A DNA stretch of 20,917 nt. It comes from a virus. The stretch spans positions 1 through 20,917 of IMG/VR virus record IMGVR_UViG_3300042905_001281; one strand, written 5' to 3'. Each line of letters begins with the position of its first letter. Positions within the stretch are counted from its first letter, which is position 1. The position numbers and the translations under genes were made by a program. Positions 3,774 through 20,116 of this stretch are shown here, piece after piece. The notes below the pieces were generated by a model, which was not told the DNA's origin, made no database searches, and saw only the letters and a list, made by a program, of their open reading frames with translations.

Positions 3774-4025
3774 CTACCTTTCAGAGGGCAAAGTTGCAGC
3801 CCAAATCCCATACTTCTGACCTGATTCCACCGCATACCTAAAGCACTCAGCCTTGACTGGGCAGGTGTCACAGAGCCTCTTGGCGATCACGATAGACAGC
3901 CTTCGGCGTGTCTCATCTCGAATATCCTCGGGATAGAAAAGCTCAGGGAAATCCTCACAGGGCACGCCATTAGCCGCATGAATAGCCTTCAGAAGGCGAT
4001 AGTGCTTCTGGTCAAAATGTGCCAT
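3774..4025 (-). CDS. whiB: WhiB-family iron-sulphur transcription regulator
   Basis: An 83-residue WhiB-like protein, the only gene on the minus strand. The four cysteines that bind a [4Fe-4S] cluster are present: C23, then C52-x2-C55-x5-C61. They are followed by the tryptophan turn GIWAA (73-77; usually G[VI]WGG), which contacts the sigma factor in known members. The positively charged tail after the turn is short, ending LPSER, so DNA contact by an AT-hook-like tail is doubtful. WhiB proteins occur only in Actinobacteria and their phages, and some phage members repress host whiB genes or block superinfection. Here it lies divergent from the recombination and replication genes and convergent with the lysis genes, a good position for a switch protein. 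The spacing C23 to C52 is wider than usual but within a plausible insertion. Confidence 0.9.
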   Translation of the reverse strand: MAHFDQKHYRLLKAIHAANGVPCEDFPELFYPEDIRDETRRRLSIVIAKRLCDTCPVKAECFRYAVESGQKYGIWAATLPSER

Positions 4026-6424: not shown

Positions 6425-7069
6425 ATGGCACTAGCTGAGAACTACAGCATCGAACGCATTAGCTACCAAATGGCTCAGGATGCTGTGATAGCAAATCACT
6501 ATCTGCACCGCAAAGCTCCATGCACATTCGCATTTGGGATGTTTGATTCAGTCGGACAGCTAGTAGGGGTAGTGATCTATGGCGTGCCTGCTTCTAGCAC
6601 CCTACTGAAGGGCATTTGCGGGCCTGATGAGGCACAGAATGTCTATGAGCTGACTCGCCTATGGGTGGATGACTCAGTCCCCAAAAACGGAGAAAGCTGG
6701 CTCATAGGGCAAACGCTAAAACAGCTAGACAGAGAGATCGTGGTCAGCTTTGCAGATAGTTCTGCTGATCATGTTGGCTATGTCTATCAAGCCACCAATT
6801 TCATTTACACAGGCCTGAGTGCAAAGTTCAAAGATCCTAAGGTCATGGGTATGGAGGGTCAGCATCATGCCAGCTATGCCAATGGCCTGACAAACGCTGA
6901 GGTCATCGAGAAGTTCGGTGACAGGGTCTATTGGGTCGAGAGACCCCGCAAACATCGTTACATTTACTTCAACGCTAGCAAAACCAGAAAGAGAATCCTT
7001 ATGTCCAAGCTCAGATACAAGCCATTGCCCTACCCAAAAATCCATGCGGGGGTGCTTGAAGGCAAATGA
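6425..7069 (+). CDS. Mom-like adenine DNA modification protein
   Basis: A 214-residue protein resembling phage Mu Mom, a GNAT-fold protein that turns adenine into N6-methylcarbamoyl-adenine and so blocks many restriction enzymes. Matching landmarks are NHYLHRKAP (24-32), a central glycine-rich strand GMFDSVGQLVGVVIYG (38-53), ELTRLWVDD (75-83), the SFAD-x5-HVGYVYQATNFIYTG block (108-130) and a C-terminal KHRYIYF...KPLPYPK segment. The last two are the most diagnostic for the family. It is soluble, single-domain and close to the usual Mom length. The next gene starts at its stop (ATGA). No Com-like translational activator is visible next to it. The exact modification chemistry is inferred from the family. 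Confidence 0.75.
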   Translation: MALAENYSIERISYQMAQDAVIANHYLHRKAPCTFAFGMFDSVGQLVGVVIYGVPASSTLLKGICGPDEAQNVYELTRLWVDDSVPKNGESWLIGQTLKQLDREIVVSFADSSADHVGYVYQATNFIYTGLSAKFKDPKVMGMEGQHHASYANGLTNAEVIEKFGDRVYWVERPRKHRYIYFNASKTRKRILMSKLRYKPLPYPKIHAGVLEGK

Positions 7070-7566
7070 TTATCACATTAAATGCTGATGAGGTGGCTAT
7101 GGCAGCAGCCGTAGCCGTAAATCGTGGGCTGGAAGCAATCAAACTCAATCGCAGAAACAATCATGGCTTTGTGGGTAACGGCTGGACTGAGAACATCGAG
7201 GGCTACTGTGCTGAGATGGCTGTCTCTAAAGCCTTGCAGATTTATTACGATGCTGGCGATGGCAAGGGTTTCAAAGGGGCTGATGTATCAGAAAAGATAC
7301 AGGTTCGCTGGGCTAGTAGGGATAGCTATCGATTGATCATCAGACCCGCTGATCACTCAGATTACTTCTATGTCTTAGTGACAGGCTATGCTCCAACTTT
7401 CACTATCCAAGGATTCATGCATGGCTCACAGGCTAAGAAGGATCAATACTGGGAAAACCCGGGCAATGGCAGGCCTGATGCTTGGTGGATACCCAAAGAG
7501 GCCCTGAGGCCCATAGCTGAAATCAAGAAAGAACTACAAACAATGAAGGGGCAAAATGAGCATTGA
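7066..7566 (+). CDS. Conserved phage protein, possible nuclease fold
   Basis: A 166-residue soluble protein overlapping the Mom-like gene by four bases. The core has EGYCAEMAVSKAL (45-57), GADVSEKIQVRW (71-82), a strand RLIIRP and FYVLVTGY, then GRPDAWWIP near the end. Proteins with this order are common in actinophages and other phages. The pattern of a conserved Glu in a helix, then Asp and a following strand with a charged residue, is compatible with a PD-(D/E)XK-like fold. However the usual ExK is here QVR, so activity is uncertain. Its place directly after a DNA modification gene suggests a role in DNA metabolism. Overlap with the initiator gene is 11 bases. Confidence 0.5.
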   Translation: MIITLNADEVAMAAAVAVNRGLEAIKLNRRNNHGFVGNGWTENIEGYCAEMAVSKALQIYYDAGDGKGFKGADVSEKIQVRWASRDSYRLIIRPADHSDYFYVLVTGYAPTFTIQGFMHGSQAKKDQYWENPGNGRPDAWWIPKEALRPIAEIKKELQTMKGQNEH

Positions 7567-8290
7567 GATTATGAATGCGGTCTGGCGTGAGTCCAAATCT
7601 GATGGTAGAGCAAGGTTGGTCTTACTAGCTATTGCTGATCATCAGGGCGAGATAGGGGCATGGCCTTCCATTAGGAGGATAGCCCAAATGGTCAATTCGT
7701 CAGAGAGAAGTGTCCAGCGTGACATTCAGTATCTGCAGAAAATTGGGGAGCTAAGGATCGAGGTCCAAAATGCACCTACTCAGGGCCAATACAAATCCAA
7801 CCGCTACTGGGTAACCCTGCCAAGCACCTCAGGGGTGACAGAATCGCAGTCAGGGGTGACAAATAAAGCGTCAGGGGTGACAGCAGGTGGCGTGCAAACC
7901 CTTATAGAACCATTAAAAGAACCTAAATATGCTTATGAGGAATTATTTGAGGAATTCTGGAATGCCTATCCTAGAAAGATCGACAAGGCCAAGGCTTTTA
8001 GGGCGTTCAAATCGGCACTTAAGAAGGCAAAGTTTGAGGACATTTTGGCTGGCGTCATTGCCTATCGAAATGACCCAACTAGGAATCCTGACTACACAAA
8101 GTATCCAGCCTCATGGCTAAATGCCTGTTCTTGGGAAAACGCTGCTGCCGCACCCGAGGTCAAGGCCGCCATTGATGCTCGCAGGGCAAAAGAAAAAGAG
8201 GCTAGTGATGCCTACCTTCGAGAGATGGAAGAGATCGCTCAGAGGGCTGTCCCACTCACTCCAGAACTGAAAAAGAAGTTAGGCTTATGA
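7556..8290 (+). CDS. Replication initiation protein, winged-helix/DnaD-like
   Basis: A 244-residue protein with the two-part plan of phage O-type initiators. Residues about 1-88 form a winged helix-turn-helix (AWPSIRRIAQMVNSSERSVQRDI as helix-turn-helix, then ELRIEV wing) that should bind origin DNA. Residues about 90-112 are a low-complexity linker containing SGVT three times at exact seven-residue spacing, encoded by the iterons. Residues about 130-193 (EEFWNAYPRKIDKAKAFRAF ... WLN-x3-W) match the C-terminal domain of phage initiators and helicase loaders. The last 50 residues are charged and helical. No helicase or polymerase gene is in the window, so it probably recruits host helicase. 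The ATG overlaps the preceding gene by 11 bases. Confidence 0.78.
   Translation: MSIEIMNAVWRESKSDGRARLVLLAIADHQGEIGAWPSIRRIAQMVNSSERSVQRDIQYLQKIGELRIEVQNAPTQGQYKSNRYWVTLPSTSGVTESQSGVTNKASGVTAGGVQTLIEPLKEPKYAYEELFEEFWNAYPRKIDKAKAFRAFKSALKKAKFEDILAGVIAYRNDPTRNPDYTKYPASWLNACSWENAAAAPEVKAAIDARRAKEKEASDAYLREMEEIAQRAVPLTPELKKKLGL
7829..7882 (+). repeat. Three iterons, candidate replication origin
   Basis: TCAGGGGTGACA occurs three times without a mismatch at 7829-7840, 7850-7861 and 7871-7882, each start exactly 21 bases apart, or two helical turns. They lie inside the initiator gene, as in phage lambda oriL within gene O. An AT-rich stretch follows at about 7895-7962, a good unwinding region. The fixed spacing also keeps the reading frame, giving SGVT repeats in the protein linker. 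Confidence 0.75.
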
Positions 8291-14015: not shown

Positions 14016-15188
14016 ATGAAAATTGAACGCATAGCTATCACGAAGCTGATACCTGATCCCACGAATGCTCGAACCCATGATGAGAAGAATCTGAGTGCAA
14101 TCGAGGGCAGCCTCAAAGAGTTCGGACAGCGAAAGCCCATAGTCATCACACAAGACAACATCATCGCTGCAGGCAATGGCACAGTCGAGGCAGCCAAGCG
14201 ACTTGGCTGGACTGAGATGGATGTTGTGCGAGTGCCAGCCGATTGGGATGCTGACAGGATCAAGGCTTATGCCCTAGCTGACAATCAAACCGCTGAGTTG
14301 GCTGAGTGGAATCCTGAGGTCATGGCTGCTCAGTTGCTCGACCTGCAAGAAGCGGGCTTTGACATTGAGTCATTTGGCTTCGAGCTTGTCAATCCCCCAG
14401 TAGATCTTGAGTCCATCGAGGAAGATGAGATACCAGAAGATGCACCTACCCGAACAGCACTAGGTGACATTTGGAAGCTAGGCAGACACAGACTTATGTG
14501 CGGGAGCACTACCAGCCTCGATGACATGGACAAGCTAATGGAAAAGAAGAAGGCTGACATAGTCTTCACAGATCCTCCTTATGGAGTGGCCTATAGAGGT
14601 GGTATTCAGTTCAAGGATGGACAGGTCCAGAAGAACAATCGAGAGATGATTCAGAATGATGACGCTGACATTTATGAAGCAGTCATGCAAACTCTAGGAG
14701 CTTATGCAAACGGCCCTTGCTACATTTGGTTCGCAGGAACTAGAGCATCCACCCTCTATGAGGCAGCAGAAAAGTATGGAGACATTCACGCTCTAATCAT
14801 TTGGGTGAAGAATGGTGGCTATGGTGCATTGAATGCAAACTACAAACAGAAGCATGAGCCATGTCTCTACTGGAAACCCAGAGGCAAGTCTTTGAACTTC
14901 ACAGGCTCGACCACAGAAACTACTGTCTGGCAGATAAACAAAGATGGAAAGAACACCTTGCATCCAACTCAGAAGCCAGTAGCCCTAGCGGCTAAGGCAA
15001 TCTCTAATCACTCTGGAGATTTAGTCTTCGATGGATTCGGTGGATCAGGTGCAACACTCATAGCATCGGAGCAGGTAGGAAAGACATGCTTCATGATGGA
15101 GCTTGACCCGAAGTATTGCGATGTCATTATCCAGCGTTGGCAAAACCTAACAGGCAAGAAAGCTGAGCTAGCCAATGCCAGCAGGTAG
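14016..15188 (+). CDS. ParB-domain DNA methyltransferase fusion
   Basis: A 390-residue protein with two parts. Residues about 1-95 are a ParB/Srx-type domain (KLIPDPTNARTHDEKNL, the GQRKPIVI strand, IIAAGNGTVEAAKRLGW). Residues about 150-390 are an N6-adenine/N4-cytosine methyltransferase with motif IV TDPPYG (185-190), HPTQKP near 310-315 and motif I FDGFGGSG (338-345) at the end. Motif IV before motif I makes it a beta-class, permuted enzyme. It uses S-adenosylmethionine to methylate DNA. No restriction nuclease partner is nearby, so it is probably an orphan enzyme that guards phage DNA. The target sequence cannot be read from the gene. It overlaps the terminase small subunit by 14 bases. 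Confidence 0.85.
   Translation: MKIERIAITKLIPDPTNARTHDEKNLSAIEGSLKEFGQRKPIVITQDNIIAAGNGTVEAAKRLGWTEMDVVRVPADWDADRIKAYALADNQTAELAEWNPEVMAAQLLDLQEAGFDIESFGFELVNPPVDLESIEEDEIPEDAPTRTALGDIWKLGRHRLMCGSTTSLDDMDKLMEKKKADIVFTDPPYGVAYRGGIQFKDGQVQKNNREMIQNDDADIYEAVMQTLGAYANGPCYIWFAGTRASTLYEAAEKYGDIHALIIWVKNGGYGALNANYKQKHEPCLYWKPRGKSLNFTGSTTETTVWQINKDGKNTLHPTQKPVALAAKAISNHSGDLVFDGFGGSGATLIASEQVGKTCFMMELDPKYCDVIIQRWQNLTGKKAELANASR

Positions 15189-19201: not shown

Positions 19202-19202
<1 letters not shown>
18861..19202 (+). CDS. Fibre-associated beta protein
   Basis: A 113-residue protein starting at GTG 18861, overlapping the previous gene by four bases. The run [56 protein letters not shown] and [10 protein letters not shown] is a well-known pattern of small phage proteins placed beside fibre genes (G-A-T-F-x-L-x-L-x-W...L-T-G-Y-x-A-x-M-Q-V-R). 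They are thought to join or chaperone fibres. It immediately precedes the collagen-like gene and shares its stop-start overlap. Position between portal and protease is unusual for this kind. Confidence 0.6.

Positions 19203-20115
<913 letters not shown>

Positions 20116-20116
<1 letters not shown>

Follow-up and report, generated by a model that had tools for sequence, protein, structure and literature searches.

A candidate iteron-type replication origin within a phage initiator gene, with a second repeat element that recurs in other phage initiator genes

Three perfect repeats in the middle of a phage replication initiator gene raise the question of what preserves them, the peptide they encode or the DNA itself, and whether the DNA marks the place where replication starts. 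To our knowledge, the origins of most sequenced phages are unknown. We addressed this question in the virus record IMGVR_UViG_3300042905_001281, a linear fragment of 20,917 bases that we refer to, in its entirety, as the window.

The repeats lie in an open reading frame of 244 amino acids on the plus strand (7556–8290). Its N terminus matches HTH_36 (PF13730; E 1.6e-7, 31.4 bits against a curated cut-off of 25) and residues 1–213 match phrog_270, "replication initiation protein" (E 6.5e-36), which identifies the product as a phage replication initiation protein of the HTH_36/phrog_270 type. The Pfam scan returned HTH_36 and HTH_11 only; Phage_rep_O (PF04492), RepA_N (PF06970) and Bac_RepA_C were absent from the matches. 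An AlphaFold2 model, for which 30 relatives served as input, contains two confident domains, giving a layout of an N-terminal winged helix, a disordered linker (pLDDT below 50 at residues 91–122) and a helical C-terminal domain. The winged helix (7556–7807, plus strand) presumably binds the iterons, and R51 and R55 of its recognition helix are invariant across 19 relatives and at least 90% conserved across 43 diverse ones. The C-terminal domain (FEEFWNAYPRK...YPASWLN; 7925–8278, plus strand) presumably recruits the helicase or primosome, a role that we infer with caution because its profile match to the SPP1 helicase loader G39P (PDB 1no1) is weak (E 0.048). A Foldseek search of the initiator against the PDB yielded generic winged-helix (MarR) structures and weak "initiator" matches (4pql, 4pt7), none with E below 0.001. 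Genes for a RecE-like exonuclease, an HNH protein, a Mom-like protein and a RusA resolvase are among the neighbors.

The repeats are exact copies of TCAGGGGTGACA on the plus strand, conserved in relatives and each 21 bp from the one before (iteron 1, 7829–7840; iteron 2, 7850–7861; iteron 3, 7871–7882). A preliminary description of this DNA had reported three perfect 12-bp copies at this spacing, had placed them in the linker of a winged-helix initiator and had noted that they encode a seven-residue SGVT repeat, and we could reproduce each of these points: every copy is in frame and encodes S-G-V-T, 7 residues from the next, and the iteron codons specify residues 92–109, inside the predicted disordered linker of a protein with HTH_36 and phrog_270 matches. 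The shorter word GGGGTGACA occurs three times in the 20.9-kb window, always within an iteron. The array starts approximately 270 bp 3' of the initiator start codon, away from any promoter position, and three iterons is at the low end for such arrays. A GC-skew shift near 7.85 kb, which had been suggested as a check, did not appear; skew is positive throughout 5–9 kb, with no turn. Because the genes of the fragment run one way here, the missing turn speaks neither for nor against an origin. No DnaA boxes were found near the array, and the three loose matches in the whole window are at chance level.

The in-frame arrangement, with 7 residues between copies in the window and in most close relatives, would suit an SGVT heptad that serves the linker in folding, oligomerization or processing. 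Codon usage argues against this reading. Close IMG/VR relatives with the window's winged helix carry 1–5 GGGTGAC copies each, most of them at least three, and in L016, L017, L020 and L025 the last copy lies 22 bp on, out of frame, so that RGDT stands in place of SGVT. For a set free of bias toward the repeat, 80 loci were picked by the winged-helix domain alone (narrow alignment A4) and dereplicated to 41, of which 33 have at least three GGGTGAC copies. Linker Gly-Val-Thr in these 41 loci is spelled GGGGTGACA in 126 of 126 triplets, counts that are inflated by shared ancestry and do not represent independent events; GGG, GTG and ACA make up 14%, 21% and 25% of the codons for their respective amino acids across these genes. 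The density of GGGTGAC in the 41 dereplicated relatives is 0.0237/nt over the 150 nt that follow the winged helix versus 0.000017/nt elsewhere, and the word appears outside the linker region of the loci 4 times in 239 kb-strand. Third positions at conserved residues, compared across 13 relatives that likewise share ancestry, are identical in 135 of 135 cases within the iterons versus 1045 of 2112 (49%) outside them.

Variation within the arrays is concerted. In 13 loci most or all copies have been converted together to GAGGTGACA or GATGTGACA. Jointly changed arrays of this kind are found in L457, L459, L462, L468, L475, L483, L490, L491, L493 and L496, and they offer a possible natural series for a change of initiator–iteron specificity. 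Recognition-helix changes, which we considered as the cause of these GAGG variants, give no simple account of them: E is replaced by P before R51 in one clade and not in the others.

When viral contigs were searched for triplets of the GGGGTGAC word at 18–24 bp intervals, at least 120 loci were obtained, versus 11 for the reversed word; counts from the collection scans are made among the matches listed, and their frequencies are not prevalence. HTH_36 is present in 47 of 63 dereplicated ORFs with GGGGTGAC arrays, among the matches listed, and phage replication-initiation families dominate the PHROGs matches of such ORFs, again among the matches listed. When the GVT peptide repeat is spelled in other codons, HTH_36 is found in only 5 of 58 representative ORFs, so GVT repeats encoded by other codons rarely occur in such proteins. 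We defined 47 dereplicated winged-helix arrays, among the matches listed, with our own winged-helix profile. Their spacings are 21, 22 or 23 bp in 98 of 141 cases, copies fall in more than one reading frame in 40 of the 47 arrays, and 10 of the 47, found by the motif, lie on the strand opposite to the gene. The frames in use yield the peptides GVT and RGD/GGD, and inverted arrays yield VTP, SHP and SP. The copies in other reading frames refute a protein feature, and with the frozen codons, the inverted arrays and the predicted disorder of the linker they make this explanation extremely unlikely. The inverted arrays bear equally on an mRNA signal for frameshifting, structure or translational control. 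The repeats are G-rich and lie within a transcribed gene, which would suit such a signal, but an inverted array gives a different transcript and we found no inverted repeats around the window array; an RNA role is therefore vanishingly improbable. Constraint on the repeats acts at the DNA level. The preliminary description had named this among the points on which its proposal could fail, and the frozen codons, third positions, shifted frames and inverted arrays all uphold it.

Among the named phages that we examined, Bifidobacterium phage PMBT6 and Mesorhizobium phage P1 carry GGGTGAC arrays. Galaxy, vB_PaeS-D14B, EBPR podovirus 2, Vibrio D65 and Aeromonas AsXd-1 have direct repeats of other sequence, for the most part approximately 22 bp apart, and phages LZ35, Jessica and MooMoo have less regular ones. 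One ORF (L154:4748–5971, plus strand) belongs to the lambda O family (Phage_rep_O, PF04492, E 6e-26) and has GGGTGAC repeats in several frames; the word therefore also occurs outside HTH_36 proteins. Most matches to the triple word in a scan of genome contigs fell in long ORFs of high-GC genomes, and we draw no host range from them.

The type of repeat follows the domain that is presumed to read it. Four relatives (L026, L029, L031 and L032) combine the window-type C-terminal domain with a different N-terminal winged helix; these are without GGGTGAC and carry CGGA-NNN-TCCG-type (CGGAAAATCCG-type) units, spaced 15 bp in L026, L031 and L032; L029 has one clear copy. The AT-rich tract is kept in these relatives. 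More broadly, iteron-word similarity rises with winged-helix identity across 54 diverse initiators (Mantel r 0.38, 0/2000 permutations). As judged from these sequence comparisons, a change of winged helix goes with a change of repeat type.

A studied Staphylococcus plasmid, pPR9, bears on the swapped type. Its Rep N terminus, which belongs to pfam13730 (HTH_36) (PMC5703833), is 41% identical to the winged helix of the swapped relatives (E 7e-16), and its gene contains CGGAAAATCCG-like units at 15 bp, an arrangement reached by 0 of 500 codon shuffles. According to a review, pPR9 and pSK41 differ over approximately 500 bp that cover the N-terminal domain and the origin, and the pPR9 mini-replicon, which replicates autonomously, is compatible with pSK41 (PMC5703833). 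The swapped domain-plus-repeat module thus carries origin function in a studied replicon, a precedent that applies to the swapped winged-helix type and not to the window's own. These exchanges also bring up the idea that the repeats are mainly crossover points for swapping initiator domains between phages. Domain swaps are real, as demonstrated by different winged helices joined to one type of C-terminal domain and by the pPR9–pSK41 pair (PMC5703833), and the common AACC element described below could still aid crossing over. In the swaps, however, each winged helix brings its own iterons, which are not alike in the two partners and are therefore not a shared sequence at the junction, and recombination has no need of a spacing held at 21–23 bp. 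We consider it very unlikely that crossing over is their main role.

The preliminary description had also pointed to an AT-rich stretch after the repeats. Of all 60-bp segments of the gene, the one at 7896–7955 (plus strand, 72% AT) is the richest in AT, and we take this stretch to be the presumed unwinding element; the 60 bp from 7900 are 70% AT, at the 99.95th percentile of the window. Of 46 arrays, 41 show a rise in AT content 3' of the iterons (+12%, Wilcoxon 1.5e-11); the rise is 0.12 in forward and 0.10 in inverted arrays. What the earlier description missed is that this stretch has a repeat structure of its own. A second element (7897–7923, plus strand) contains AACC at 7897, 7908 and 7920, with spacings of 11 and 12 bp, and GAACC at 7907 and 7919; its first copy starts 14 nt past the last iteron. 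Among the repeat-unbiased loci, 39 could be scored, and 37 of these have two or more downstream AACC words at intervals of 11 or 12 bp, in all three frames, the first AACC usually being 14 nt past the last iteron. The codons are frozen here as well: Glu-Pro-Ser in the element is spelled GAACC[AG]TC in 14 of 14 cases in an iteron-selected set, versus 16% expected.

Three features of a lambda-type origin, namely in-gene phased repeats, DNA-level constraint and an adjacent AT-rich element, are all present. We consider the region from 7829 to approximately 7955, iterons plus unwinding element, very probably to be a theta origin of the lambda type within the initiator gene, which supports the iteron-type origin first proposed for it on the grounds of DNA-level constraint and lambda-like anatomy. 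In the mechanism that we infer, the N-terminal winged-helix domain would bind the three TCAGGGGTGACA iterons; since these are approximately two helical turns apart, the bound copies would stack on one face and bend the DNA. Strain from this bending would open the adjoining AT-rich element with its 11–12 bp AACC repeats, and the C-terminal domain would then recruit the replicative helicase, probably that of the host. Because the linker is predicted to be disordered, the DNA there would be free to evolve as an origin, with the peptide serving just as a tether. The phage may have a second origin elsewhere, as the window is a 20.9-kb linear fragment.

DNA-level constraint taken alone fits a different use of the same contacts, in which initiator bound to the repeats would act in autoregulation, copy control or partition (a centromere-like site) and not in starting replication. 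In plasmids, proteins that bind iterons commonly regulate their own genes or pair their iterons as well. The position of the array within the gene, not at a promoter, and the near absence of GGGTGAC elsewhere in the loci weigh against such a site, as does the AT-rich element with its own 11–12 bp repeat that nearly always follows. Replication origins occupy this position in lambda, SPP1 and pSK41 (PMC5043065, PMC6316719, PMC5703833), and the pPR9 module supports replication. A purely regulatory site is, on this evidence, unlikely.

The second element also recurs in other phages as (A/T)GAACC(G/A)TCA, with the repeat unit GAACCATCA. We scanned for three GAACC[AG]TC words alone, the 11–12 bp spacing being imposed by the search, and found 55 winged-helix initiators in 93 representatives, among the matches listed; the remaining representatives are mostly simple-sequence or truncated ORFs. 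At least two iteron spacings of 18–25 bp lie just upstream in 54 of these 55 initiators, versus a codon-shuffled mean of 0.54. Their iteron words are diverse, many with a GGGTG/CACCC core, while the element is on the gene strand in 55 of 55 and in more than one frame in 39 of 55. Arthrobacter phage Galaxy (L412, gene 42), with iterons GGGGTGAAC 22 and 44 bp apart and three copies of GAACCGTCC at 11 bp, is a cultured isolate that shows the two-part candidate origin. We propose tentatively, at slightly less than even chances, that a large class of dsDNA phages whose winged-helix initiators are unrelated, or related at a distance, share a two-part in-gene origin: initiator-specific iterons spaced approximately 22 bp apart, then a common 11–12 bp (A)GAACC[A/G]TCA element on the gene strand that is read by a common host factor or acts as a sequence-specific unwinding or loading element, a role comparable to that of DnaA-trios at oriC. 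A common factor or an unwinding or loading role is suggested because the element stays constant across differences in iterons, in C-terminal domain and in genome GC, which ranges from 0.42 to 0.71.

One other gene of the window gives some indication of its host. A gene for a WhiB-family transcription factor is at 3777–4025 on the minus strand (PF02467, E 7.5e-13). WhiB proteins are actinobacterial, and the gene thus suggests an actinobacterial host, which fits the initiator's Arthrobacter phage relatives. A Mom-family protein (6425–7069, plus strand; PF25680, E 1.2e-43), of the DNA-modification type known from phage Mu, adjoins the replication genes. An N6_N4 DNA methylase (14016–15188, plus strand; PF01555) has an N-terminal stretch that looks ParB-like by eye. 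A collagen-like Gly-X-Y protein (19202–20116, plus strand; PF01391, E 4.9e-29) lies among structural genes, and a Gly_rich_2 protein is at 515–2179 (E 3.5e-27).

Neither the recurring GGGGTGAC word nor the shared second element appears to have been described; the open-licence literature yielded no account of GGGGTGAC as an iteron that recurs among phages, none of the GAACC[A/G]TCA element and no general description of such origins, an absence that is weak evidence. Phased linker iterons followed by 11–12 bp AACC repeats would permit origins to be called from sequence alone in metagenomic and isolate phages, the second repeat may allow start sites to be found in many uncharacterized phages, and these signatures would predict which initiator domain pairs with which iteron word. 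The shared element raises the question of what reads one DNA word beside so many initiators. As one stretch of DNA that would be both gene and origin, the region is a clear case in which the DNA role wins.

An origin inside the initiator gene is of a known kind, with lambda, SPP1 and pSK41 as examples. In mycobacteriophage Miko, repA together with 171 bp of upstream DNA is enough for autonomous replication, and its authors suspected an in-repA origin (PMC7157519). We considered it as an experimental precedent and rejected it, as we found neither in-gene iterons of this type nor significant similarity of its RepA to the window protein.

The likeness to lambda that the preliminary description drew holds for the anatomy: gene O has four annotated iterons, spaced 20, 24 and 23 bp and lying in frames 0, 2, 2 and 1, and the stretch that follows is 72% AT. 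The name it used does not hold, as oriL is the SPP1 origin and that of lambda is ori-lambda. The lambda iteron is an 18–19 bp inverted repeat of other sequence, without GGGTGAC or the GAACC element, and lambda O is a Phage_rep_O protein, whereas the window protein is of the HTH_36 type; the working would thus be lambda-like, outside the lambda O family. In lambda, O binding opens the adjoining AT-rich region (PMC5043065, PMC7466680). SPP1 oriL likewise lies in an initiator gene, gene 38, and consists of direct repeats plus an AT-rich element for unwinding (PMC6316719). Its initiator G38P and loader G39P, however, are separate proteins, their sequence relation to the window protein is weak, and SPP1 has a second origin, oriR. 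The staphylococcal RepA_N plasmid pSK41 has its origin repeats within the rep gene, where they encode a dispensable linker (PMC5703833). The C-terminal domain of pSK41 and pPR9 is Bac_RepA_C, which binds primase, unlike that of the window, and the iteron word and 15-bp spacing of pPR9 match the swapped relatives and not the window. pPR9 Rep is nonetheless chimeric in the same manner as the window's relatives, its N-terminal domain and origin having been exchanged for a phage-like HTH_36 module.
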